A stretch of 64,000 nucleotides of DNA from Streptomyces clavuligerus (GTDB lineage Bacteria; Actinomycetota; Actinomycetes; Streptomycetales; Streptomycetaceae): NCBI RefSeq assembly GCF_005519465.1, contig NZ_CP027858.1, positions 4,030,001 through 4,094,000 on the forward strand, read 5' to 3'. The notes below the pieces were generated by a model. That model was not told the origin of the DNA. It did not search any database and saw only the letters and a list, made by a program, of their open reading frames with translations. Below, in pieces: positions 12,093 to 30,357 of this stretch. Each line of letters begins with the position of its first letter. Position 1 is the first letter of the stretch. Made by a program: the position numbers and the translations under genes.

Positions 12093-13421
12093 TCAGTGGG
12101 GTCGTGCGCACCGCCGCGCGAGTTCCGTGGCGGCCTGATCGAGCGGGAACGGGGTCTGCTCGCCGCTCTCCATGTCCCGTACGGTGACCGTGCCGGCGTC
12201 GCGCTCGGCGGCGCCGTAGATCACGCAGAAGCGGGCTCCTTGATCGTTGGCCCACTTCATCTGGGTACGGAACTTCCCGCTCGCTCCGAGGTAGACGCCT
12301 GTGCGGACGCCGGCGCGGCGGATTTCCGCCGCCAGCCGGAAGGTGTCGGCGGCCAGTTCCTCGCCCATGACCGTGACCGCGACGTCGATCTGCGCGTAGC
12401 CGTCGGCGTCGCCGTGGTCCAGCAGGGGGAGGATGCGCTCGATACCGAGGGAGCCCCCACAGGCGGGTGCGTCCTTGCCGCCGAGGGTGGCGATCAGGTT
12501 GTCGTACCGGCCGCCCGATGCGATGCTGCCCGGCATGCCGGGAGCGGAGACCTCGAAAATGATCCCCGTGTAGTAGTCGAGCCCACGGACCAGGTTTGGC
12601 GTGAAGGCGATGCGCTCGGCGGGGATCGTGTCCTTGGTGAGCCGGAGCAGCCGATCGATCTCGGCGAGACCCGCCTGACCCGTCTCGCTGCCCTTCAGCT
12701 CGCCCCGGATTCGTTCGACGGCGTCCGGTGCGGTCAGGTCGTCGACCAGCCCCTGAGCGACCTCCTCCGCCAGCCCGCGTCCCGTGACCAGCTCGGCCAC
12801 GACCTGCTCCGGCGCCAGCTTGTCGAGCTTGTCGAGAGTGATCAGGGCCCCCGGGCCGAGGTCGGCGGGGACGCCGTACGCCTCCAGCAGCCCGAACAGG
12901 ACCCGACGCGAGTTCAGCAGGAAGCGGAACCCGGGTACACCGAGGGCGTCGAGCGCGTCGTGCAGCGCGAGGACGACTTCCGCGTCGGACAGCGGCGAGG
13001 AGGAGCCGACGATGTCCAGGTCGCACTGGACGAACTCGCGGAAACGGCCCTTGCCCGGCCGGTCGGCGCGCCATACCGGGGCGATGGCGTAGCGCTTGTA
13101 CGGCGAGGGGAGCTGGTTGCCGTACGCGGCGACCGTGCGGGCGAGAGGCACGGTGAGGTCGTAGCGGAGCGCGAGGTCCGCCTCACCGGTGGCCTCGTGC
13201 TCGCCCCGACGGAGAATTTTGAAGATCAGTTTGTCGCCTTCGTCACCGTACTTCCCGGTGAGGACTTCCAGCCGTTCGAACGCGGGGGTTTGCAGGGGCT
13301 GGAATCCGTACCGTCCGAACACTTCGCGGATGGTCGCGAAGGCGCGCTCGCGCCTCTCGTGCTCGGCCGCGAGGAAGTCGCGGGTGCCGGAGGCGGGGTC
13401 GAACTGTTTCTGGGAGACCAT
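12093..13421 (-). CDS. hisS: Histidyl-tRNA synthetase, Bacteroidetes/eukaryote-like class
   Basis: 442 residues, full length. Motif 2 (REFVQCDLDIVG), HisA (LVRGLDYYTGIIFE), HisB (SGGRYDNLIA) and a C-terminal anticodon-binding domain (about 345-442) are all present, so it should charge tRNA-His. The N-terminal catalytic part has GKYGDEGDKLIFKI and LRYDLTVPLAR, where ordinary bacterial HisS has an LRPEGT motif. That marks the class found in eukaryotes and Bacteroidetes. Streptomyces normally has its housekeeping hisS near relA, so this is probably a second copy, perhaps resistance-linked or acquired. The ATG at 13421 matches the family start; a longer upstream frame has no domain content. Confidence 0.93.
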   Translation of the reverse strand: MVSQKQFDPASGTRDFLAAEHERRERAFATIREVFGRYGFQPLQTPAFERLEVLTGKYGDEGDKLIFKILRRGEHEATGEADLALRYDLTVPLARTVAAYGNQLPSPYKRYAIAPVWRADRPGKGRFREFVQCDLDIVGSSSPLSDAEVVLALHDALDALGVPGFRFLLNSRRVLFGLLEAYGVPADLGPGALITLDKLDKLAPEQVVAELVTGRGLAEEVAQGLVDDLTAPDAVERIRGELKGSETGQAGLAEIDRLLRLTKDTIPAERIAFTPNLVRGLDYYTGIIFEVSAPGMPGSIASGGRYDNLIATLGGKDAPACGGSLGIERILPLLDHGDADGYAQIDVAVTVMGEELAADTFRLAAEIRRAGVRTGVYLGASGKFRTQMKWANDQGARFCVIYGAAERDAGTVTVRDMESGEQTPFPLDQAATELARRCARPH

Positions 13422-13471
13422 GGACGCATGATCCCGGAGCCCGGTGGCGGGAGCAAAAACCCATCCGCGCC

Positions 13472-13640
13472 GTGGTGTTCGTGTCTTCCGGTCTTCCGGG
13501 CGTGGCGGAGTTGACCGAAGAGACCGGTGTCGGCGGCACCTGCCTGGCACCCTTGTACGACCTCGTCCGCCGTGCGGCCGAAGCGGGCCATGGCGGGCAC
13601 AGTGTCCCGGTCCGCACCGGGCTGCCGGGGAAGCGCACCG
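13472..13640 (+). pseudogene. Possible remnant of a dehydrogenase C-terminal domain
   Basis: In the 355-base gap between divergent hisS and the ATP-grasp gene, one + frame reads GVAELTEETGVGGTCLAPL and then DLVRRAAEAGHGGHS. This resembles the helical C-terminal domain of hydroxyisobutyrate dehydrogenase/imine-reductase-type enzymes, where a GHG motif follows the last helix. There is no Rossmann domain upstream and no proper start, so if real it is a decayed fragment. The same gap must also hold the two divergent promoters; none is obvious. Confidence 0.25.
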
Positions 13641-13776
13641 ACCCTGATCACTCGTACGTGGGGAGATGCGCCACCGGCCAGCCGGGGCGGTGGAATGCAC
13701 CTACGATCCCGGACATCAGGGGGAGAAGGCGGGCCGCGAGGGGCGGAGACAAGCAGGTAGGGGGGCAGGTCCAGCC

Positions 13777-18357: not shown

Positions 18358-18389
18358 GGAACCGGGACCGGGACCGGTGCCTGCCGGAG

Positions 18390-18922
18390 TCGGGGCGGGG
18401 GTCTCCCGTGCCTCCGCGCCGACCCAGGGGAGCGTGGTGCTGGGGGCGGGACCTGAACGGGGGCGGGTGCGCCGAGCCCAGCCCCCGCCGTCCCCCGTTC
18501 ACGGCGCCGTCGGCCCTCCGCGCACGGGCGTACCCGGATATCCCCGGGACGGTTCACCGCCCGGCCCGTGCCGGGTAGGAAGAAGCCAAGGTGGCGGGCT
18601 GCGCGGATGCCGGTGGCCGGTACGCACCGGCGGTCCGGAACAGGCATCGCGTGTCCTGGATGGCCGGGGTCCGACGGGCCTTCGGCGCGCGGGCGTTCCT
18701 CGCCCTGGCTCATACCGGGCACGCCTCCCGCCGTACCCAATGTCCGCTTTAGCAAACGGTGGTGACCTGCGGATCCACCCCCAAGGCGGCTCCCCCCACG
18801 CACACGGCCCGAGCCGGGCGGACGCTGATCGTCCGGCGCGGGCGGGGCGTGAGTCTCCCTTCGCTTCCCCGGGTCCCCTGCCCCGCGCGGGTGCCCGGCG
18901 GAGAACGACGGAAGGACCGGCC
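18390..18922. other. Long upstream region of the NRPS
   Basis: The NRPS frame happens to stay open from 18377, but the predicted 182 extra residues (Pro/Gly/Arg-rich, no condensation-domain homology) look untranslated. An in-frame ATG at 18740 lacks a ribosome binding site. The segment near 18735-18760 (tttagcaaacg) is the only A/T-richer spot. No convincing promoter or regulator gene is seen here. Confidence 0.4.
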
Positions 18923-21900
18923 GTGGCCGTTCGCCGCACGTTTCCGCTCACCTCGTACCAGCGCGACATCTGGGCCGCCGCGTCCCGGACCCCCGACGAC
19001 CCGCAGTACAACGTCGTCCTGGACGAGAGGATCGACGGCACCGTCGACACCGGGGCCCTGCGGACGGCACTGGCCCGGGTGCTGCGGCGGCGGGACACGT
19101 TCCGGCTGCGGTTCGGGGAGCGGGACGGCGTTCCGTACCAGTGGGTGGCCGAGGAGCCGGAGGCCGTGCCCGTCGAGTGGGTCGACCTGTCCGGCGCGGA
19201 CGATCCGGCCGGGGCGTGGCGGGCGTGGCGGGAGCGTTCCTTCTGGCAGCCCTTCCGATTACTGGACGGGGGCCCGGCGGTCACCGCCGCCCTGGTGCGG
19301 GAGAGCCCGGCCGTGCTGCGGCTCCATGTGAAGGCGCACCACCTGACCGCCGACGGCTGGACGGCCAACGCGCTGAGCCACGAGATGTGGGACGGCTACG
19401 CCCGGCTCACCGAGGGGGGCGCCGCGCCCGAGGAGCCCGCGCCCTCCTGCCGGGACCTCGCGGAGCGCGACACCGCCTACCGCGCGTCCCCCCGGTACGA
19501 GCGCGACCGCGCCTTCCACCGCGCCGAGTTCGCCGGGGTCGCCCCCGCGCTCTTCCCCCGGGCCGCCGGGGCGACGACCGCCGGGGCCGCCCGCCGCAGT
19601 GGGCTGCACACGTTCACCGTCGACGCGTCCGTGGTGCGCGGCGTCCGCGCCCGCGGCAGCTCCCCGTTCGCGTTCCTCACCGCCGCCCTCGCCACCTGTC
19701 TCGCCCGGGTGCACCGCAGCGACGAGGTCGTCATCGGCGTCCCGTTCCTCAACCGGCCCTCCGCCGCCGAACGCGGCACCGCCGGGCACTGCGCCAACAG
19801 TCTGCCGGTGCGCGTCCCGGTGCCCGCGGACGCCTCGCTGCACACCCTCGCGGCGGGCGTCCGCGACCGCGTCGCCGCGCTCCGCGAACACGAGCGCTTC
19901 CCCCTCGGCGACATCCTGCGCGATCTGCCCGCCGACAGCTCGGGCGAACGCCGGCTCTACGACGTGACCCTGTCGTACCTGCGCTTCCCGCGCCCCGGTC
20001 CGCTGCCGGACGCCGAACGCGAGAGCCTGATCAGCGCGCCGCTGCACGCGCAGAGCGCCCTCACGGTCGGGATCACCTCCTACGACGACGACTCCGAGCT
20101 GCGGATCGACCTCTACTACGCGCCGGACGTCTTCGACGCGGACCTGCCCATCGAGGCCGTCGCGGGCCATCTGGCCACGCTGATCCGGGCGGGCGCCGCG
20201 CAACCGGAACGGGCGGCGGTGACGCTGCCGCTGATGAGCGCGGACGAGGAGGCCCGAACGGTCCGCGCGGGGCAGGGCCCGGACGTCCCCTACCGCGACG
20301 ACACCACCCTGCACGCCCTGATCGAGGAGCAGGCGGCCCGCACCCCCGGCCGCACCGCCGTCACCGCCGCCGACGGCTCCGCGCTCACCTTCGCGGAACT
20401 CGACGTCCGCGCCAACCGGATCGCCCACGCCCTGCGCGCCCGCGGCACCGGCCCCGGCGACCGGGTCGCGGTCCTCCTGGAACGGGGGCCGCACACCCTG
20501 CCCGCGCTGCTCGGCGTCCTCAAGTCCGGCGCCGCCTACGTCCCCGTCGACCCCGGCCACCCCGCCGACCGGATCGCCTTCCTCCTCGCCGACAGCCGCG
20601 CCCGCGCCGTCCTCACCGGCCCCGGCACCGAGGCGCCGCCCGACATCCCGGACGGCGTCCCCGTCCTGCGCGCCGACCTGCTCGCCGCCGACGCCTCCGG
20701 GGGCACCGACCGGCCCGTGCCTCCGGCCGCCGGGCCGCGCGACCTCGCGTACGTCATCTACACCTCCGGCTCCACCGGCCGCCCCAAGGGCGCCCTGGTC
20801 GAACACCACTCCGTCGTCAACCGGCTCGCCTGGATGCAGCGGCACTGCCCCATCGGTGCCGCCGACACCCTGCTCCAGAAGACACCCGTCTCGTTCGACG
20901 TGTCCGTCTGGGAGCTGTTCTGGTGGGGTGTCGAGGGCGCCGGGCTGGCCCTGCTGCCGCCCGGCGGCGAACGCGACCCGCGCACCATCCTGCGGGCCGT
21001 CGCCGAACACGGCGTCTCCGTGCTGCACTTCGTCCCGTCCATGCTCGGCCCCTTCCTCGACCTCCTGGAGGAGCGGCCCGAGCTGGGTGCCGAGGCGGCG
21101 ACCCTGCGGCAGGTCTTCTGTAGCGGCGAGGCGCTGCCCCCGGCGCGCGTCGAGCAGTTCGCCCGCGTCCTCGGCACCCCGGCCGCCCCCGGCGGCACCG
21201 CGCCCCGGCTCACCAATCTGTACGGGCCGACGGAGGCCACTGTCGACGTCTCCTACCACGACTGCCCGACCGTCCCCGGGCAGCCGGTCCGCCGCGTCCC
21301 CATCGGCCGCCCCGTCGCCAACACCGGCCTGTACGTCCTCGACCCCCACGGCAGACCGCAGCCCACCGGCCTCCCCGGCGAGCTGTGCATCGGCGGTGTG
21401 CAGGTGGCGCGCGGCTATCTGGAGCGGCCCGGGCTGACCGCCGAGAAATTCACCGGCGACCCCTTCCGCCCCGGCGGCCGGATGTACCGCACCGGCGACC
21501 TCGCGCGCTTCCTCGCGGACGGGTCGGTCGAGTATCTGGGCCGCATCGACGGCCAGGTGAAGATCCGCGGCAACCGGGTCGAGCCGGGCGAGGTGCAGAA
21601 TGCCCTCGCCGCCCTGCCCGGCGTCCGGGACGCCCTCGTCGTCGACCACCACGGCGGCGACGGCGGCGTCCGCCTCGCGGGCTACTACGTCGCCGACGCC
21701 GTCATCGATCCGCTGCGGCTGCGGACGGAACTCTCCCGCAGCCTCCCCGAGTACATGATCCCGGCGTACTTCGTCCGCATCGACGCGGTGCCGCTCACCC
21801 CCAACGGCAAGGCCGACCGGCGCGCCCTGCCCGCCCCCGACCCGGCCGCCGCCCCGGGCCCCCGCCCGTACACCGCGCCCCGCGACACCACCGAGGAGGC

Positions 21901-24900
21901 GCTGGCCGCCGTCTGGGCCACCGTCCTCGGCACGGAGCGGGTCGGCGTCCACGACGACTACTTCGCCCTCGGCGGCGACTCGATCCTCATGCTCCGCATC
22001 CGCGCCCTGGCCGCGCGGCGCGGATTCCGCTTCGGGGTGAGCGACCTGGTCCGCAACCCCACGGTCGCCGCGCTCGCACCGCTCACCGAAGCCATCGGCG
22101 ACGAGGCGGAACAAGGAGCGGAGCTGGGGCCTTTCGCCCTGGTCTCCAGCGTGGACCGGGCCCGGCTCGAAGGCCGTGAGGACGCCTTCCCGGTCAGCCG
22201 CCTCCAGCTCGGCCTGCTCTACCACAGCGTCGTGGAACAGGGCTCAGCCGTCTACCGGGACGTCTTCCGCTACAGCTTTCTCCTGCCCTGGGACGAGCAG
22301 CAGTTCACCGCCGCGTTCGACCGGCTCACCGCCCGGCACCCGGCGCTGCGCTCCTCGTTCGACCTCGGCGGCTGCTCCGAACCGCTCCAGATCGTGCACC
22401 CGGAGGTGGAACGCTCCCTCTCCGTCGTGGATCTGCGGTCCGCGACCGTGCCGGAGGCGGAGACCCGGATCGCCGCCCACATCGAGGAGCGCCGCTTCTT
22501 CCCCTACGCCTTCGAACAGGCCCCGCTGTACCACCTGCGGGTCCATCTGCTGCCCGGGAGCGCGGAGCTGGTGCTCAGCTTCCACCACGCCATCCTCGAC
22601 GGCGGCAGCGTCGCCACCCTCGTCCAGGAACTCCTCCAGGACTACACGCACCTGCTCGGCGAGGACGTCCCCGCCGTGTCCGACGCCGCCCCCGTCCGGG
22701 CCGCGCACCACATCCTGGCCGAACGGGAGGCGCTGCGCTCCGCCGAGGCCAAGGAGTACTGGGGCCGCCGCCTGGACGGGGCGCCGCTCGTGCAGCCCAC
22801 CGGCTTCCGTCCGCACGAGACGCCGGGGAGCGACCAGCAGATCACCCGCCGGGTCGACCTCCCGGCCGATCTCGTCACCGCCGTACGGGAGTTCTCCCGC
22901 GTCCACACCCTGCCGGTGAAGTCGGTGCTGTTCGCGGCGCACGTGCTCACCCTGCGGCTGTTCTCCGGGAGCGCCGACGTGGTCACCGGTCTGGTGACGC
23001 ACGGCCGCCCGGACCGGGCCGGGGCCGAGCGGATGACGGGACTCTTCCTCAACACCCTGCCGATCCGGGTCGACACCGCGACCGGTACGGACGGAGGCGG
23101 GGGGAGCTGGCTCGCGGTGGTCCGCGAGGCGTTCCGGCAGGAGCAGGAGAGCCACCCGTACCGCCGCTACCCGCTCAGCGCCATCCAGGAGGAGTCGGGC
23201 CGCACCGTCCTGGACAGTGCCTTCAACTACATCCACTTCCGGCAGCTCACCGAGGTGTACGCGCTGCCCGGCATCCGGGTGCTGTCCTTCCGCACCTGGG
23301 AGGAGACCAACTTCGCGCTGCTGGTGAACGCCGTCACCGACCCCGGCGACCAGAGCATCTGGCTGCGCATGGACCACGCGGCGCGCACCTTCACCCCGGC
23401 CCAGGCCGAGCTGTACGGGGACACCTTCCTGCGGGTCCTGCGCCGGACCGTCGAACACCCCGGGGAGGCGGTGGACTTCTCCTTCCTCGCCCCGGAGCCG
23501 CGGCGGCGGCCGGGGGCGGGGGCCGCAGCCGACGCGCCGGACGTCGTCACGGCCTTCGCCGCGCAGGCCGCGCGCACCCCGCGCGCCACCGCCCTCGTCC
23601 ACGGCGACCGGCGGTGGAGCTACACGGAACTGGACCGGGCCGCCGACCGGGCCGCCCGGCGGCTGCGGGCCCTGGGCGCGGGCCCCGGCAGCCGGGTCGG
23701 CGTCTGTCTGGACCGCGCGCCGGAGACGATCGCCGTCCTCCTCGGGGCGCTGCGGGCCGGGGCGGCCACGGTGCCGCTGGACATCTCGTACCCCTGCGAA
23801 CGGATCGCCGCGATGATCGGGCAGGCGCGCCCGGTCACGGTGGTCACCCGGTCGGCACAGGACACCTGCGTCCCCGGCGGCACCGACCGGATCACGGTCG
23901 CCGAACTCCTCGACGGCGGCGGCTCCGGCGGCTCCGACAGCGGCTCCGGCGGCGGTGGCGGCGGTGCGCCCGACGGCGCCGGGGTGTCCGACGGTGCCGG
24001 GGAGCTGCCCGGGGCCGACCCGGACGGCGTCGCCTACCTCCTCTTCACCTCCGGCTCCACCGGCGTCCCCAAGGGCGTCGAGATGCCCCACCGCTCCCTG
24101 GCGGGCCTCGTCGCCTGGCAGAACGCCGTCCCCAGCGGTGTCGTCGGCGGTGTCACCCTCCAGTACGCCCCGCTCAGCTTCGACGTCTCGTTCCAGGAGA
24201 TCTTCTCCACGCTGTGCGGCGGCGGCACCCTGCTCCTCGTCCCCGAGGCCGAGCGCCGCGACCCGCCCGCCCTGCTGCGGCTGCTGGACCGCGCCCGCGT
24301 GGAACGGCTGTACCTCCCGTACGTCGCCCTCCAGCAGCTCGCCGAGACCGCGCAGGCGCTCGGCACCGTCCCCCGCCATCTGCGGGCGGTGCTCTCCTCC
24401 GGGGAGCAGCTCCGGGTGACGGACGAGATCCGGGCGCTCTGCGCGGCGCTGCCGGGGGTGCTCCTGGAGAACCAGTACGGGCCCACCGAGTCCCATGTCG
24501 TCACCCGGTACACGATGAGCGGCGACCCGGACGCGTTCCCGGCGCTGCCGCCGATCGGCACCCCGGTCGACGGGGCGGAGGTGCTCGTCCTGGACGGCCG
24601 GATGCGGCCGGTGCCGGACGGGGTCACGGGCGAGCTGTATCTGGGCGGGAGCTGCCTCGCCCACGGCTACGCGGGCCGCCCCGACCTCACCGAGGAACGG
24701 TTCGTCCCGCGCCCCTCGGGAGTACCGGGGGAGCGGCTGTACCGCACCGGCGACCTCGGCTTCCGGCTGCCGGACGGCTCGGTGGTCTGCTCGGGCCGGG
24801 TGGACTCCCAGGTCAAGGTGCGCGGCTTCCGGGTGGAACCGGCCGAGGTGGAGATCGCGATCACCCGGTTCGCGGCCGACCACCCGGGGCTCACGGAGGC

Positions 24901-26251
24901 GGCGGTCGTCGCCCGCGGCCGGGAGGGCAACGACTCCTTCCTCGCCGCCTTCCTCGTCGGCGACCCGGACCGGGCGGACCTGGACCTCCTCGCCAAGCAG
25001 CTCCGTTCCGTGCTCCCCGGGCACCTGGTGCCGTCCCACTTCCAGTGGGTGGACGCGCTGCCGCTCACCCCGAGCGGCAAACGGGACGACAGGGCGCTCG
25101 GCGGACTGCCGCTGGTGTCCGCCCGGGACCGGGCCTCCTCCGGCGCGCAGGCCGCGCCCCGGGACGCCTATGAGCGGGCCCTCGCGGAGATCCTGGGCGA
25201 GCTGCTGGGACTGCCCTCCGTGGGCGTCCACGACAACATCTTCGGCCTCGGCGCCACCTCGCTGACCGCGATGCGGCTGGTGGTCCTGATCGAGCAGCGG
25301 TACGGGGTCGGGGTGCCGCTGTCGGAGTTCGTGGCCGCGCCCACGGTCGCCGCGCTGGCCGCGCGGCTGCGGGGCGGCGACGCGGTCCGGGGCTTCGATC
25401 CGCTGGTGCCGATGCGCCCCGGCGACGGGGCCGCCGACGGACGGACGCCGCTGTTCCTCGTCCACCCGATGGGCGGGAACGTGCTCTGCTATGTGCGGTT
25501 CGCGGCACATCTGCCGCCGGGGCGGCCGTTCTACGCGCTCCAGGCCGCCGGGGTCGACGCGGGCACCGAGCCCCGCCGCACGCTGGAGGCCATCGCCGCG
25601 GGCTATCTGGAACGTGTCCGCCAGGTGCAGCCCGAGGGCCCGTATCTGATCGGCGGCTGGTCCTTCGGCGGCTTCGTCGCCTTCGAGATGGCCCGGCAGC
25701 TCCGCGCGGCGGGCCAGGAGGTGGAGCGGCTGATCCTGCTGGACACCACCGCCCTCAACCCGGGCGACCGCCCCGAAACCGACGACGAGGCCCTGCTCGG
25801 CTGGTTCTTCTGGGAGCTGCTGTGGCTCCAGCGCGGCGGCGCCTCGCCCCAGGAGGCGCTGCCGCCGGAACTGACCACGCTGGAGGAGAAGTTCGACTTC
25901 ATCGCCCGGCTCGCGATCGACGAGGGCGTCCTGCCCGAGGGCGCCACCGGCGCGGTGGTGCACCGGCTGTTCCAGGTGTACGAGGCGAACTGGCGGGCCG
26001 CCGCCGGGTACCGGCCCGGGGTCGTGGACCAGGACATGACGCTGCTGCGCGCGAGCGAGCCGCTGCCCGCCGTCCTCGACACCATGCACACCGCGGCGCG
26101 CTCCCTGCACCGCGACCCGGCCAACGGCTGGCGGGGGCACACCAGCGGGGAGCTGACCGTGGTCGAGGTACCGGGCGACCATCTGACGATCATGGAGGAG
26201 CCGCAGGTCGCGGCCGTCGCCCGGGTCGTCACCGAACTGATCGGGGAGTGA
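18923..26251 (+). CDS. Bimodular NRPS C-A(Ser)-T-C-A(Pro-like)-T-TE, PxaA/LgnA-like
   Basis: 2442 residues from GTG with gaagga upstream. Domains: starter-type C (7-430, HHLTADG at 139-145), A1 (460-968), T1 (Ser1020 in GGDSI), C2 (1090-1510, HHAILDG 1221-1227), A2 (1538-2063), T2 (Ser2113 in LGATSL) and type-I TE (2174-2442, Ser2247 in GWSFGG). Eight-to-nine-residue codes read by alignment to GrsA: A1 DVWHFSLVDK, the serine code; A2 DVQYLSQVVK, sharing D, V, Q and VV with proline codes. An initial C domain implies N-acylation. With the FAD monooxygenase one base downstream this matches pyrrolizidine-forming systems. Codon 113 is TTA. No MbtH or acyl-ligase gene nearby. Confidence 0.93.
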   Translation: MAVRRTFPLTSYQRDIWAAASRTPDDPQYNVVLDERIDGTVDTGALRTALARVLRRRDTFRLRFGERDGVPYQWVAEEPEAVPVEWVDLSGADDPAGAWRAWRERSFWQPFRLLDGGPAVTAALVRESPAVLRLHVKAHHLTADGWTANALSHEMWDGYARLTEGGAAPEEPAPSCRDLAERDTAYRASPRYERDRAFHRAEFAGVAPALFPRAAGATTAGAARRSGLHTFTVDASVVRGVRARGSSPFAFLTAALATCLARVHRSDEVVIGVPFLNRPSAAERGTAGHCANSLPVRVPVPADASLHTLAAGVRDRVAALREHERFPLGDILRDLPADSSGERRLYDVTLSYLRFPRPGPLPDAERESLISAPLHAQSALTVGITSYDDDSELRIDLYYAPDVFDADLPIEAVAGHLATLIRAGAAQPERAAVTLPLMSADEEARTVRAGQGPDVPYRDDTTLHALIEEQAARTPGRTAVTAADGSALTFAELDVRANRIAHALRARGTGPGDRVAVLLERGPHTLPALLGVLKSGAAYVPVDPGHPADRIAFLLADSRARAVLTGPGTEAPPDIPDGVPVLRADLLAADASGGTDRPVPPAAGPRDLAYVIYTSGSTGRPKGALVEHHSVVNRLAWMQRHCPIGAADTLLQKTPVSFDVSVWELFWWGVEGAGLALLPPGGERDPRTILRAVAEHGVSVLHFVPSMLGPFLDLLEERPELGAEAATLRQVFCSGEALPPARVEQFARVLGTPAAPGGTAPRLTNLYGPTEATVDVSYHDCPTVPGQPVRRVPIGRPVANTGLYVLDPHGRPQPTGLPGELCIGGVQVARGYLERPGLTAEKFTGDPFRPGGRMYRTGDLARFLADGSVEYLGRIDGQVKIRGNRVEPGEVQNALAALPGVRDALVVDHHGGDGGVRLAGYYVADAVIDPLRLRTELSRSLPEYMIPAYFVRIDAVPLTPNGKADRRALPAPDPAAAPGPRPYTAPRDTTEEALAAVWATVLGTERVGVHDDYFALGGDSILMLRIRALAARRGFRFGVSDLVRNPTVAALAPLTEAIGDEAEQGAELGPFALVSSVDRARLEGREDAFPVSRLQLGLLYHSVVEQGSAVYRDVFRYSFLLPWDEQQFTAAFDRLTARHPALRSSFDLGGCSEPLQIVHPEVERSLSVVDLRSATVPEAETRIAAHIEERRFFPYAFEQAPLYHLRVHLLPGSAELVLSFHHAILDGGSVATLVQELLQDYTHLLGEDVPAVSDAAPVRAAHHILAEREALRSAEAKEYWGRRLDGAPLVQPTGFRPHETPGSDQQITRRVDLPADLVTAVREFSRVHTLPVKSVLFAAHVLTLRLFSGSADVVTGLVTHGRPDRAGAERMTGLFLNTLPIRVDTATGTDGGGGSWLAVVREAFRQEQESHPYRRYPLSAIQEESGRTVLDSAFNYIHFRQLTEVYALPGIRVLSFRTWEETNFALLVNAVTDPGDQSIWLRMDHAARTFTPAQAELYGDTFLRVLRRTVEHPGEAVDFSFLAPEPRRRPGAGAAADAPDVVTAFAAQAARTPRATALVHGDRRWSYTELDRAADRAARRLRALGAGPGSRVGVCLDRAPETIAVLLGALRAGAATVPLDISYPCERIAAMIGQARPVTVVTRSAQDTCVPGGTDRITVAELLDGGGSGGSDSGSGGGGGGAPDGAGVSDGAGELPGADPDGVAYLLFTSGSTGVPKGVEMPHRSLAGLVAWQNAVPSGVVGGVTLQYAPLSFDVSFQEIFSTLCGGGTLLLVPEAERRDPPALLRLLDRARVERLYLPYVALQQLAETAQALGTVPRHLRAVLSSGEQLRVTDEIRALCAALPGVLLENQYGPTESHVVTRYTMSGDPDAFPALPPIGTPVDGAEVLVLDGRMRPVPDGVTGELYLGGSCLAHGYAGRPDLTEERFVPRPSGVPGERLYRTGDLGFRLPDGSVVCSGRVDSQVKVRGFRVEPAEVEIAITRFAADHPGLTEAAVVARGREGNDSFLAAFLVGDPDRADLDLLAKQLRSVLPGHLVPSHFQWVDALPLTPSGKRDDRALGGLPLVSARDRASSGAQAAPRDAYERALAEILGELLGLPSVGVHDNIFGLGATSLTAMRLVVLIEQRYGVGVPLSEFVAAPTVAALAARLRGGDAVRGFDPLVPMRPGDGAADGRTPLFLVHPMGGNVLCYVRFAAHLPPGRPFYALQAAGVDAGTEPRRTLEAIAAGYLERVRQVQPEGPYLIGGWSFGGFVAFEMARQLRAAGQEVERLILLDTTALNPGDRPETDDEALLGWFFWELLWLQRGGASPQEALPPELTTLEEKFDFIARLAIDEGVLPEGATGAVVHRLFQVYEANWRAAAGYRPGVVDQDMTLLRASEPLPAVLDTMHTAARSLHRDPANGWRGHTSGELTVVEVPGDHLTIMEEPQVAAVARVVTELIGE

Positions 26252-26252
26252 G

Positions 26253-27452
26253 ATGAGCAGGCGCAGGGCCCTTGTCGTCGGAGCGGGCATCGGCGGGCTG
26301 ACCGCCGCCGCCGCGCTGCGGGACGCGGGCTGGGACGTGCGGGTCCACGAGCGGGCGGGGCGGCTGCGGGCCGCCGGGTCGGGGCTCTCGGTGATGAGCA
26401 ACGCGATCGCCGCCCTGTCCGCCGGGGGGCTCGACCTCCGGCTGGAGGAGCGCGGCGAGGTGCTGCGCTCGTACCATGTACGGACCCCGAAGGGCAGGCC
26501 CATCCGGGAGTTCCCGTTCCCGGAGATCACCGGCAGGCTGGGGGTGCCGAGTGTGCTGATCACCCGTTCCGCCCTCCAGGAGGCGCTGCTGGAGGCGGCG
26601 GACGGGATTCCGATCACGCTGGGCGCCACCGCGGAGGACTTCACCGAGGACGAGGCGACGGGGCGGGTCACCGTCCGCTTCGACGACGGGACCGAGGCCA
26701 CCGGCGACGTCCTCATCGGCGCCGACGGCTTCAACTCGGCGGTCCGGCGGCGGCTCGTGGGCCCCGAGGAGTCGCGGGACAGCGGCTATGTCTGCTGGCT
26801 GGCCCTCACCCCGTACAGCCACCCCGGCTTCCCGCCCGGGTCCGTCATCCACTACTGGGGCAGCGGCAAGCGCTTCGGCCTCGTCGACATGGGCGGCGGA
26901 CTGCTCTACTGGTGGGGCACGCAGAACATGCCCACGCGGCTCTCCCACGGCTGGCAGGGGACCAAGGCGGATGTGGCGCGCGCCTTCGCGGGGTGGGCCG
27001 ACGAGGTCCGGCACGCCATCGACGTCACCGACGAGTCCGCCCTGCTCGCGGTGCCCTCCCGGGACCGCGCCTTCCTGGACCGCTGGGGCCGCGGCCCCGT
27101 CACCCTCCTCGGCGACGCCGCCCACCCCATGCTCACCAGCCTCGGCCAGGGCTCGGGCCTCGCCATCGAGGACGCGGTGGTCCTCGCCCAGCATCTGCGC
27201 GGCGCCGACGACATCCCCGCCGCCCTCCGCGCCTACGAGGACGAACGCCGCGAGCGCACCCGGGCCATGGTCGCCGCCTCCCGTGCGCTGAGCGACTTCG
27301 AACAGGCCGAGAACCCGATCCGCCGCCCCCTGCGCGACGCCTACTTCCGCCTGGTCCCCCGGCGCAGGCTCACCGCCCTGCTGGAGAGCGGGCTGACCTT
27401 TCCCCCGGCCCCCCACGGGGCGATCCTGCCCCGGGACATCCACACCGTGTGA
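26253..27452 (+). CDS. FAD-dependent monooxygenase (group A), PxaB/LgnB-like partner of the NRPS
   Basis: 399 residues. FAD-binding motifs in order: GAGIGGL (10-16), GADGFNS (156-162, the DG motif) and GDAAHPM (287-293, the GD motif), typical of NAD(P)H-dependent aromatic-hydroxylase-fold monooxygenases. ATG one base after the NRPS stop, so cotranscribed and coupled. In pyrrolizixenamide, legonmycin and brabantamide pathways an enzyme of this class performs a Baeyer-Villiger-type oxidation of the NRPS-released bicycle, leading to ring contraction; that role here is inferred from architecture. A terminator-like hairpin follows. Confidence 0.92.
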   Translation: MSRRRALVVGAGIGGLTAAAALRDAGWDVRVHERAGRLRAAGSGLSVMSNAIAALSAGGLDLRLEERGEVLRSYHVRTPKGRPIREFPFPEITGRLGVPSVLITRSALQEALLEAADGIPITLGATAEDFTEDEATGRVTVRFDDGTEATGDVLIGADGFNSAVRRRLVGPEESRDSGYVCWLALTPYSHPGFPPGSVIHYWGSGKRFGLVDMGGGLLYWWGTQNMPTRLSHGWQGTKADVARAFAGWADEVRHAIDVTDESALLAVPSRDRAFLDRWGRGPVTLLGDAAHPMLTSLGQGSGLAIEDAVVLAQHLRGADDIPAALRAYEDERRERTRAMVAASRALSDFEQAENPIRRPLRDAYFRLVPRRRLTALLESGLTFPPAPHGAILPRDIHTV

Positions 27453-27561: not shown

Positions 27562-28398
27562 TCAGTTGACGTCGATGAAGTCGCCCGCGGTGGTGACCGG
27601 CTTGGTGGTGGAGGTGCCGGCGAAGCTGTAGCGGTAGTAGCCGTCGGCGGTGGCCTTGACGGTGGTCTTGAGCTTGCCGACGCTGTCGGTGGTGACCGTC
27701 TTGACGGTGGTGTAGGTCTTGGCGTCCTTGGCGCGGTACTGGAGCTTGACCGGCTGGGCGGAGTAGCCCGTGTAGCGGTTGACGTCCCAGTTGGCGCGGG
27801 TGAGGGCGCCGGTGACGGTGAGGTTCGCGTTCTTCTTCACCGGCTCCGGGGCGGCGTCCACGGTCAGCCGGGAGTCACGCTGGATGCTGGTGCTCCCATA
27901 GCGGAACCTCACCTCGCCGTCGCCGTCCTTGCCCTCGGCGTAGATGGCCACCCGCCAGCCGCCGCCCGCCAGGTCGTTGGTGTGGTCCCACGGGTCGAAC
28001 GTGAAGTTCGCCTTGCAGGTGCCGGTGGTGCCCTTGTTGGTGCAGGACGCCTTCTCACCGTCGGAGAGGATGAGGGCCTCGGCGGCGTACGGGTCGGTGC
28101 CGCGCCACAGCCAGACGTCGCCCGCGGCGATGCCGCGGTTGTCCTTCGCGGTGAAGGTCACGGTGACCTTCTTCGTGTCGGTCGCGTGCAGGACGATCGG
28201 CTTGCCGCCGTTGACGCTGACGCTGGTGATGCGGGTGTCGCCGTCACGCACGTCGTCCGACTTGGCCTTCGACGCGTACCCCTTGCCGGACAGGGCGGGG
28301 AGAGCCGGCACGCTGTCGGCGGCGGTGGCCACGGGGGCGGCGAGAGCGGTGGCGGCCAGGGCGCCGGTCACCACGGCGACGGAAACACGGAAGCGCAT
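27562..28398 (-). CDS. Secreted paralogous protein A (DUF5707-like family)
   Basis: 278 residues; start chosen at MRFRVS, giving a clean Sec signal peptide (VAVVTGALAATALAAPVATA, cleavage near residue 27). The mature protein has two beta-rich domains. The first (about 45-165) has CTNKGTTGTC, a likely disulfide loop; the second (about 180-278) has SRLTVDAAPEPV, GALTRANWD and the YYRYSFAGTSTT motif. This resembles a Streptomyces secreted family that I recall as DUF5707 or annotated as calcium-binding; function unknown. The C-terminal 95 residues are almost identical to the next gene. Tandem duplicate with shared flanks. Confidence 0.82.
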   Translation of the reverse strand: MRFRVSVAVVTGALAATALAAPVATAADSVPALPALSGKGYASKAKSDDVRDGDTRITSVSVNGGKPIVLHATDTKKVTVTFTAKDNRGIAAGDVWLWRGTDPYAAEALILSDGEKASCTNKGTTGTCKANFTFDPWDHTNDLAGGGWRVAIYAEGKDGDGEVRFRYGSTSIQRDSRLTVDAAPEPVKKNANLTVTGALTRANWDVNRYTGYSAQPVKLQYRAKDAKTYTTVKTVTTDSVGKLKTTVKATADGYYRYSFAGTSTTKPVTTAGDFIDVN

Positions 28399-28472
28399 GC
28401 AAGTCCTTGTGTGGGCAGGGGGGCTCCGCAACGCGTGGGTGCACGCGTCTGTGAGAACCCCGAAAGTCCGAT

Positions 28473-28638: not shown

Positions 28639-29472
28639 TCAGCGGACGTCGATGTAGTCGCCCGCGGTGGTGACCGGCTTGGTGGTGGAGGTGCCGGCGA
28701 AGCTGTAGCGGTAGTAGCCGTCGGCGGTGGCCTTGACGGTGGTCTTGAGCTTGCCGACGTTGTCGGTCGTCACCGTCTTGACGGTGGTGTAGGTCTTGGC
28801 GTCCTTGGCGCGGTACTGGAGCTTGACCGGCTGGGCGGAGTAGCCCGTATACGTGCCGGTGTCCCAGTTGGCGCGGGTGAGGGCGCCGGTGACGGTCAGG
28901 TTGGTGTTCTTGGTGACCGGCTCCGGGGCGGCGTCCACGGTCAGCCGGGAGTCACGCTGGATGCTGGTGGTCGTGACGGCGTACTTGGCGGCGGCGGTGT
29001 TGTCCTTGGACAGCGCGGCCACGAGGAGCTTCCAGCCGCCGCCCGCGGCGGTGTTGTACTCCAGCTCCGGGTCGAGGGTCATCGTCAGCTTGCAGGTGCC
29101 CGTCGTGCCCTTGTTGGAGCAGGCGACATCCTCCTGGTCGGTGAAGAAGATTCCCTGGGGGTTGTCGAAGTCGGTGCCGCGCCAGAGCTGCGCGTAGCCC
29201 CGGGCGATGCCCTTGTTGTCCTTCGCGGTGATGACGATGTCGACTTTCTTCTCACCGTGGGTGCCGAGGACGATCGGCTTGCCGCCGTTGATGGAGGCGC
29301 TGAGGATGCGGGTGTCGCCCTGGGCGACGTCACGGGCCTTGCCCTGGGCGGCGTACTTCTTCAGGTCCGCGCGGAAGGCCGACTTGTCGTCGGCGTGCGC
29401 GGCGGCGGGCACGGCGAGCGCCGTGGCGGCGAGGGCGCCGGTCAGCACGGCCGCGGAAACACGGAAGCGCAT
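28639..29472 (-). CDS. Secreted paralogous protein B (DUF5707-like family)
   Basis: 277 residues from MRFRVS, with a Sec signal peptide (VLTGALAATALAVPAAAHA). Same two-domain plan as paralogue A: a first domain with CSNKGTTGTC, then the near-identical C-terminal domain from SIQRDSRLTVDAAPEP to the end. N-terminal domains have diverged (AQLWRGTDFDNPQ versus DVWLWRGTDPYAA). The upstream frame to 29556 is not needed. Each gene has its own upstream region and terminator, so they are likely independently transcribed. Confidence 0.82.
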   Translation of the reverse strand: MRFRVSAAVLTGALAATALAVPAAAHADDKSAFRADLKKYAAQGKARDVAQGDTRILSASINGGKPIVLGTHGEKKVDIVITAKDNKGIARGYAQLWRGTDFDNPQGIFFTDQEDVACSNKGTTGTCKLTMTLDPELEYNTAAGGGWKLLVAALSKDNTAAAKYAVTTTSIQRDSRLTVDAAPEPVTKNTNLTVTGALTRANWDTGTYTGYSAQPVKLQYRAKDAKTYTTVKTVTTDNVGKLKTTVKATADGYYRYSFAGTSTTKPVTTAGDYIDVR

Positions 29473-29540
29473 ATGAGTCCGTTCGCAAGGGGCTCCGAGA
29501 CGCGGTGAGTGCACGCGTCTCCAGGAACCCGAGTTCGGGT

Positions 29541-29554
29541 GAGTCTGCTGACTC
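29541..29554. promoter_or_regulatory. Conserved upstream inverted repeat, paralogue B
   Basis: gagtctgctgactc is an inverted repeat (gagtc/gactc, 4-base loop) about 70 bases before the ATG at 29472. It lies at the equivalent place to the repeat before paralogue A, flanked by the same gtgcacgcgtct and ccatggttg words. Confidence 0.5.
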
Positions 29555-29649
29555 ATTCACTCCAGACTCGCGACCGATGACCATGGTTGCGCTGAACATG
29601 AATATTTCTCGGTAATAGTCCGGGCATGCTCGGGCATTGACTTTCAGCC

Positions 29650-29784: not shown

Positions 29785-30357
29785 TCAGACGCCGTCGGCG
29801 CGTTCCCGGACGTCCACCAGCGTGCCGCCCGCGTACGTGATCAGCGCCTTCGGTTCGAGCGGGAAGACGGTGTGGGGGGTGCCCGCAGCCGCCCACACCA
29901 CCGGGTGGTTCAACAGGCCCCGGTCGGCGAGGACCCGGGTCCGGGTGACATGGCCGAAGGGCGGCACGCCCCCGATGGCGTACCCGGTGGTGCTCCGCAC
30001 CAGGGCGGCGTCCGCGCGGGTGACGGCGCCCGCGCCCAGTTCGGCGCGGACCCGTTCCACGTCCACCCGGGACGAGCCGTCCATCAGCACCAGCACCGGG
30101 ACGCCGTCCGCCGCGAAGACCAGCGACTTGACGATCTCGCTGATGTCGCAGCCGAGGGCCGCTGCGGCCTCGGCCGCGGTACGGGTCGCGTCCGGGAAGC
30201 GGCGCACGGGGACCTCCAGGCCCAGCGCGCGCAGCGCCTCGGCGAAACGCGGGTGGGCGCCGGAGTCCTGAAGGGCGTCCGAACCCTGCGGGGCCGGGTC
30301 CTGCGGGGCAACGGGGTTCTGGGATGCGGGAGTTTCGGAAGTGTCAGGGTTGCTCAT
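29785..30357 (-). CDS. YbaK/ProX-type aminoacyl-tRNA deacylase
   Basis: 190 residues; a 35-residue Pro/Gln/Asp-rich N-terminal extension precedes the YbaK/EbsC fold. Motifs: AAALGCDISEIVKSLVF (with the substrate-contacting Lys), LVLMDGSSRVD, YAIGGVPPFGH and KALITYAGG at the end. The family hydrolyses mischarged tRNAs such as Ala- or Cys-tRNA-Pro in the cytoplasm. Monocistronic, between the secreted paralogues and a PBP gene on the same strand but with a 220-base gap. Confidence 0.88.
   Translation of the reverse strand: MSNPDTSETPASQNPVAPQDPAPQGSDALQDSGAHPRFAEALRALGLEVPVRRFPDATRTAAEAAAALGCDISEIVKSLVFAADGVPVLVLMDGSSRVDVERVRAELGAGAVTRADAALVRSTTGYAIGGVPPFGHVTRTRVLADRGLLNHPVVWAAAGTPHTVFPLEPKALITYAGGTLVDVRERADGV

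Follow-up and report, generated by a model that had tools for sequence, protein, structure and literature searches.

Bicyclic alkaloids carrying an N-acyl group are made by a known family of bacterial pathways that pair a nonribosomal peptide synthetase (NRPS) acting on serine and proline with a Baeyer-Villiger monooxygenase (BVMO). The literature on this family states that pxaA by itself in Escherichia coli gives the indolizidine intermediate and that pxaAB in a foreign host gives pyrrolizixenamides, so that two genes are sufficient; in related pathways, hydrolysis, decarboxylation, and dehydration of a carbamate are reported to yield the pyrrolizidine without an enzyme (PMC11177316; see also PMC4335319, PMC8748450, PMC11794875, PMC10176759, and PMC10206073). 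Here, we analyze a 64,000-nucleotide stretch of the Streptomyces clavuligerus genome (contig 1, 4030001-4094000, in an 8.5-Mb genome), hereafter the window, which carries an NRPS gene immediately followed by the gene for a flavin adenine dinucleotide (FAD)-dependent monooxygenase. We consider it highly probable that this intact pair of genes directs the synthesis of an N-acyl bicyclic alkaloid and is an added member of the Ser-Pro NRPS/BVMO family.

The NRPS reading frame runs without a stop from 18377 to 26251 (positions within the window, here and below), and GTG at 18923 is the plausible start because GGAAGGA ends six bases upstream and the C-domain motif FPLTSYQ begins at residue 7. Pfam recognized two Condensation, two AMP-binding, two PP-binding, and one Thioesterase domain in the product, in which the catalytic motifs HHLTADG, HHAILDG, and GWSFGG as well as the carrier serines of both T domains are present; the PDB relatives of the thioesterase (TE) domain are NRPS, polyketide synthase (PKS), and fatty acid synthase thioesterases. 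The GC content by codon position, 0.78/0.54/0.94 in the NRPS gene and 0.73/0.55/0.96 in the monooxygenase gene, follows the pattern of real high-GC genes. The stop codon of the NRPS gene ends at 26251 and the ATG of the monooxygenase gene is at 26253, leaving a gap of one base. A scan found no terminator-like site. The layout is that of PxaA and BraB, with condensation (C), adenylation (A), carrier (T), and TE domains in the order C-A-T-C-A-T-TE on one protein and an adjoining BVMO gene, and not the split legonmycin layout of A-T, C-T-C-A-T-TE, and type II thioesterase (TEII) proteins using threonine. The features are as follows:

18910..18916, plus strand: GGAAGGA, ribosome-binding-like, preceding the NRPS start (direct reading)
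18923..26251, plus strand: bimodular NRPS, C-A-T-C-A-T-TE, 2442 aa (Pfam and motif order)
18932..20254, plus strand: C1, probable acyl-starter condensation domain, HHLTADG (Pfam; top PDB matches RzmA-Cs)
20303..21832, plus strand: A1, serine code DVWHFSLVDK (scripted code; identical in 45 of 47 A1 domains)
21878..22072, plus strand: T1 carrier domain, LGGDS (motif)
22148..23482, plus strand: C2, probable dehydrating condensation domain, HHAILDG (top PDB matches McyA and AmbE)
23543..25102, plus strand: A2, proline-type code DVQYLSQVVK (scripted code; family comparison)
25178..25369, plus strand: T2 carrier domain (best-scoring Pfam PP-binding stretch)
25448..26227, plus strand: type I thioesterase domain, GWSFGG (Pfam; PDB relatives)
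26253..27452, plus strand: LgnC-like FAD Baeyer-Villiger monooxygenase, 399 aa, P0002 (Pfam FAD_binding_3, residues, tree)
26850..26852, plus strand: codon of H200, essential in LgnC (alignment to LgnC numbering)
26907..26915, plus strand: codons of Y219-W220-W221 in YWWGTQN (motif, LgnC numbering)

The specificity codes of the two A domains were re-derived by script at anchor positions that we take to be those of GrsA-PheA, yielding DVWHFSLVDK for A1 and DVQYLSQVVK for A2, a pair consistent with serine followed by proline. Both are exactly the codes that an earlier note, made from the letters of the window, had read by hand. For comparison, codes were surveyed at 48 loci, counted as loci and not as strains (L145 apparently duplicates the record of L012, and L019 and L141 come from a single strain). 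Besides the window and a second cluster of the same genome, the set comprises 10 named genomes, one plasmid, and 35 stretches from a genus sample. DVWHFSLVDK is found in 45 of 47 A1 domains and DVWHFSLIDK in the other 2, with L143 lacking such a domain. Among the 47 A2 codes read, the window included (the motif was missed by the script in L146), D235 and Q239 are present in all 47, S301 in 44, and Q322 in 40, and DVQYLSQVVK itself recurs identically in L127, L129, and L130. Two reference alignments gave different letters for 25 of 47 A1 and 24 of 47 A2 readings, and for each domain we give the code obtained with its own reference, A1 or A2. The earlier note had regarded the proline code as imperfect and, on that basis, raised a ring-size variant; the S301 and Q322 that depart from textbook proline codes are normal for the family, so there is no ground for another ring size, and the variant was set aside after the 47 A2 codes had been read. 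This gives a usable rule, by which S301/Q322 is the normal state of the family proline domain and DVQFISQLLK marks a clade with linked clpP. A further sub-group of six loci (L017, L018, L019, L140, L141, and L142; 6 of 47 codes) carries A2 DVQHCSHAAK next to flavin-reductase-like and acyl-CoA-dehydrogenase-like genes, named by sequence reading and not by family search; so atypical a code hints at a modified form of proline as substrate.

The monooxygenase P0002 contains the GAGIGG (GxGxxG) and GDAAH motifs and, at LgnC numbering, carries H200, Y219, W221, and R207. According to mutational work on LgnC, H200A and W221A are inactive, Y219F loses 95% of activity, and R207Q and Q350A retain about 50% and about 30%, respectively (PMC11457151); Q351 of P0002, nearly invariant across the monooxygenase alignment, may correspond to Q350. 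The monooxygenase tree has 61 rows: a branch with 100/100 support separates 53 LgnC-like rows, P0002 among them, from 8 other FAD monooxygenases, and P0002 pairs with a protein of Streptomyces sp. NPDC000594 (88-89% identity) within a 14-row clade (100/97); its named nearest relatives are from Streptomyces. Among the matches listed, the combined YWW and H200 signature occurs at 10 of 80 named loci, all 10 with an adjoining NRPS, and no comparable NRPS was found at the 70 named loci without it, three of which gave partial matches of 24-36%; matches had to exceed 350 residues for an adjoining NRPS to be scored, and short contigs make up several of the loci. The strict motif script failed for L151 and L157. 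Of the 392 genomes sampled from the genus, 35 (about 9%) gave LgnC-like enzymes at E<=1e-110, with 36 matches in all.

The assignment of the condensation domains is more graded. The top three solved relatives of C1 in a PDB sequence search, 7c1k, 7c1h, and 7c1p (116.8 to 111.8 bits), are structures of the starter C domain RzmA-Cs (PMC7804268). This is suggestive of a lipoinitiation, or acyl-starter, C domain, short of proof because the margin over Txo1, Txo2, EntF, and CDA is modest. For C2, the top PDB matches are McyA (241 bits) and AmbE (172 bits), with PvdL next (144 bits). McyA works on a serine that ends as dehydroalanine. AmbE-C2 is a characterized dehydrating domain with which LgnD-C2 clusters, according to PMC10880069, and the window C2 shares 55% identity with its counterpart in the legonmycin-type locus L143. 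C2 is therefore a probable dehydrating condensation domain. C1 is the least conserved domain relative to the nearest loci (60-63% in L127-L130, compared to 70-90% for the remaining domains), so the acyl group is a likely point of difference.

With the genes, domains, codes, active-site residues, and clade thus established, a pathway can be proposed whose chemical steps derive from the literature on relatives. C1 would acylate the serine loaded by A1, drawing an acyl-CoA from general metabolism, and C2 would convert acyl-serine to the dehydroalanine form and condense it with the proline loaded by A2, producing an acyl-dehydroalanyl-prolyl intermediate. Release by the TE through attack of the enamide carbon would give an acylamino dihydroindolizinone with a [5+6] ring system, next to the ketone of which the monooxygenase would insert oxygen to form a [5+7] bicyclic carbamate (an oxazepine-dione); non-enzymatic loss of CO2 would then lead to the [5+5] pyrrolizidine. 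The likeliest direct product is an N-acyl [5+7] bicyclic carbamate, decaying to the pyrrolizidine with loss of CO2. The overall reading of the earlier note, a Ser/Pro bicycle made by an NRPS and a monooxygenase, is supported by these analyses: its C-A-T-C-A-T-TE order and one-base gap are confirmed by reading frames, Pfam, and motifs, and its view of the leading C domain as acceptor of an acyl starter agrees with RzmA-Cs as the nearest relative, by a modest margin. The three findings that the note itself named as fatal did not materialize: A2 is Pro-like with the family-normal pattern, the monooxygenase retains the key residues and falls in the LgnC-like clade rather than with the 8 other FAD monooxygenases, and C1 has a starter domain as its closest match. 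Of its proposed flavin Baeyer-Villiger oxidation and ring contraction, the oxidation stands, whereas the contraction is reported to be non-enzymatic, with the carbamate as the product of the enzyme.

Several observations weigh against this interpretation. The product is predicted from the genes, and Xenorhabdus stockiae PxaA/PxaB, BraC, LgnC, and PymC were compared with the pair through published descriptions. The types of C1 and C2 rest on sequence scores, and the lead of RzmA-Cs for C1 (116.8 bits) over Txo1 (107.9), Txo2 (100), EntF (89), and CDA (85.5) is modest. P0002 has YWWGTQN in place of YWWxTKN, a motif reported to be specific to LgnC-like enzymes (PMC7820566), with relatives varying at the same position among K, R, E, M, Q, and others. 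An acyl-CoA gene was not found among the scanned neighbors. Finally, the short-chain dehydrogenase/reductase (SDR) partner of the near relatives is absent from the window, as it is from L016 of the same clade.

The last point invites the view that the pair is a reduced remnant, a cassette that lost its partners (the SDR and perhaps a PaaN-like gene) and now yields a truncated product or nothing. Indeed, of the 11 loci that share the clade with the window, 10 have an SDR gene directly 3' of the monooxygenase gene and on the same strand, and the best SDR homolog in the genome (54%) belongs to another cluster, the second LgnC-like one at about 1.56 Mb. However, both genes in the window are intact and retain coding bias, and pxaAB alone is reported to be productive in a foreign host. 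Across the survey, an SDR gene is found on the monooxygenase strand at 28 of 48 loci, in 17 of those less than 1500 bases from the YWW codons, and is missing from that strand at the other 20. We judge decay of the cluster to be unlikely; the SDR may have been lost or may not be required. A PaaN-like gene occurs on the examined stretch at 10 of the 11 clade loci, but only L132, L134, L135, and L136 have it as an immediate same-strand neighbor, and therefore it is not claimed as a lost partner.

Two further alternatives concern the product. In brabantamide-type chemistry, the enzyme itself would rearrange the [5+7] intermediate to a [5+5] lipocyclocarbamate, with pyrrolizidines as side products. 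The literature describes BraC and PxaB as homologous enzymes sharing the substrate core and first step, with the outcome set by side chain and enzyme; the scanned neighbors (not all small ones were scanned) include no rhamnosyltransferase or fatty-acid gene, and we regard this outcome as improbable. A2 might instead take azetidine carboxylate, pipecolate, or 5-methylproline, given that family members with azetidine carboxylate and 5-methylproline are reported and that the A2 of PxaA is described as taking azetidine carboxylate when supplied. The code of the window fits the proline-type members, in contrast to DVQFISQLLK of the clpP-linked clade and DVQHCSHAAK of the other group, and the scanned neighbors include neither an azetidine carboxylate synthase nor a methyltransferase as far as could be identified. 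We regard such a variant as very unlikely.

Should the direct product be an unstable carbamate instead of the commonly isolated pyrrolizidine, the cluster would test whether bacterial pyrrolizidines are breakdown products among proline members lacking linked clpP as well. In the metaze pathway, a carbamate is the reported direct product, with a half-maximal inhibitory concentration of 1.35 uM for ClpP, formation of a covalent adduct, and conversion to an inactive bicycle (PMC13386464). By analogy, the carbamate would probably be the product of importance also here, and it may acylate ClpP; the argument for this target is one of shared chemistry only. The window contains no clpP, and the nearest of the three ClpP-family matches in the genome is about 584 kb away. 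Hand reading placed a clpP pair no more than 16 kb from the LgnC-like gene for 4 of the 36 matches (L156, L158, L159, and L161), several matches being on short contigs where linkage could escape. These four loci form one clade (100/100) and are the sole loci with A2 DVQFISQLLK, so clpP linkage marks another branch and provides no support for ClpP as the target of the window product. In the same clade, a gene resembling a methyltransferase gene lies near the NRPS gene or upstream of it, and L158 also encodes a separate 1672-aa type I PKS with an NCBIfam PKS_plus_SDR match. Unlinked self-resistance was considered as well and rejected: 34 carriers had 138 ClpP genes and 34 non-carriers 131, no clear excess (own genome excluded; non-carriers taken by low handle number, with incomplete G001 excluded and kinship unmatched). 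The broader proposition, that the pair is self-sufficient, makes a covalent ClpP-acylating carbamate in the absence of both a linked resistance clpP and tailoring genes, and varies mainly in its acyl tail, set by the fast-diverging C1, is advanced tentatively, as a rather doubtful one. If true, ClpP attack would be a trait of the wider LgnC-like family, beyond the clpP-linked azetidine clade, and the cluster offers a test of whether inhibition extends to proline members lacking linked clpP.

Neighbors of the pair that have a Pfam match look unrelated to its product, and those scanned include no acyl-CoA ligase, TEII, or small-molecule methyltransferase gene (a few small predicted genes lie outside the scan). 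Upstream, Pfam identified glycoside hydrolase-like and histidyl-tRNA synthetase-type genes and, about 8 kb off, a helix-turn-helix/DUF5753 regulator-type gene; downstream, it identified genes for a tRNA-editing domain protein, a penicillin-binding protein, and mannosyltransferase-type, TP_methylase, TatD-type, and G5/transglycosylase proteins. Immediately downstream of the pair, two minus-strand genes (27562-28431 and 28639-29556) had no Pfam match. The pair is flanked by the histidyl-tRNA synthetase-type gene (12093-13700, minus strand) and the gene for the stand-alone tRNA-editing protein (29785-30357, minus strand). Concerning the insertion site, the right-flank penicillin-binding-protein-type gene was recovered in 12 of 20 other genomes and the left-flank gene in 4 of 12, and flank genes sharing one contig were not close to each other.

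The second LgnC-like cluster of the same genome (L096/L097; contig 1, about 1558886-1578808) encodes a 5060-aa protein with PKS domains (KS, AT, DH, ER-type, and KR) followed by C-A-T-C-A-T-type NRPS domains with codes DVWHFSLVDK and DVQFASQVVK, along with an SDR and an LgnC-like monooxygenase (YWWGTKN, 47% identical). It looks as if the acyl tail were assembled on the same protein, and with a cutoff of E<=1e-130 none of the remaining 391 genomes in the 392-genome sample gave a relative. A search of plasmids recovered one close relative (57.5%). In Streptomyces sp. YIM 121038, a relative of the pair (L012; NZ_CP030772.1, 348563-358428) resides on a plasmid of 968 kb amid transposase, group II intron, and integrase genes, indicating that the cassette can reside on mobile DNA.

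Overall, the window adds a compact, easily expressed two-gene system to a well-understood family, the points of interest being the acyl chain, the carbamate as the true product, and ClpP as a possible target. Its closest counterparts are PxaA/PxaB of X. stockiae, likewise a bimodular Ser-Pro NRPS with one BVMO for which two genes suffice, and the Xenorhabdus hominickii locus L023, which has the same layout and A1 code with A2 DVQYISQVIK, whereas its monooxygenase is only 49% identical to P0002. By their descriptions, brabantamide (BraB/BraC) and pyracrimycin A (PymC) also derive from related Ser-Pro pathways with homologous BVMOs, and serine and proline labeling is reported for pyracrimycin A. 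The comparisons with PxaA/PxaB and brabantamide drawn in the earlier note were the right ones; its naming of LgnA/LgnB as the same pair was not, because legonmycin, as published accounts describe it, requires LgnB (A-T), LgnD (C-T-C-A-T-TE), LgnA (TEII), and LgnC, with threonine. The legonmycin system of Streptomyces sp. MA37 shares with the window the key residues of an LgnC-type BVMO, the proline module, and, probably, a dehydrating C2, but there threonine is loaded by a separate A-T protein and transferred by a TEII, in contrast to the collinear NRPS with a serine code found here. The legonmycin layout recurs in L143 (C-T-C-A-T-TE, a TEII-like gene, and proline domain DVQFVSQVVK), where the separate A domain has DFWNVGMVHK, presumably a threonine code. 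The lga cluster of Streptomyces sp. CT37 (legoncarbamate/bohemamine) resembles the window, by description, in its C-A-T-C-A-T-TE protein LgaD, acting on serine and proline or 5-methylproline, and its LgnC-like enzyme, but has tailoring genes (methyltransferase and acyl-CoA genes) of which none were found among the scanned neighbors. Azetidomonamide, clipibicyclene, and metaze follow the same NRPS/BVMO logic, with an unstable bicyclocarbamate as their direct product; these pathways use azetidine carboxylate and that of metaze has linked clpP, whereas the window lacks both a linked clpP and DVQFISQLLK, the code read in the clpP-linked clade, and its own A2 code fits the proline members of the family.

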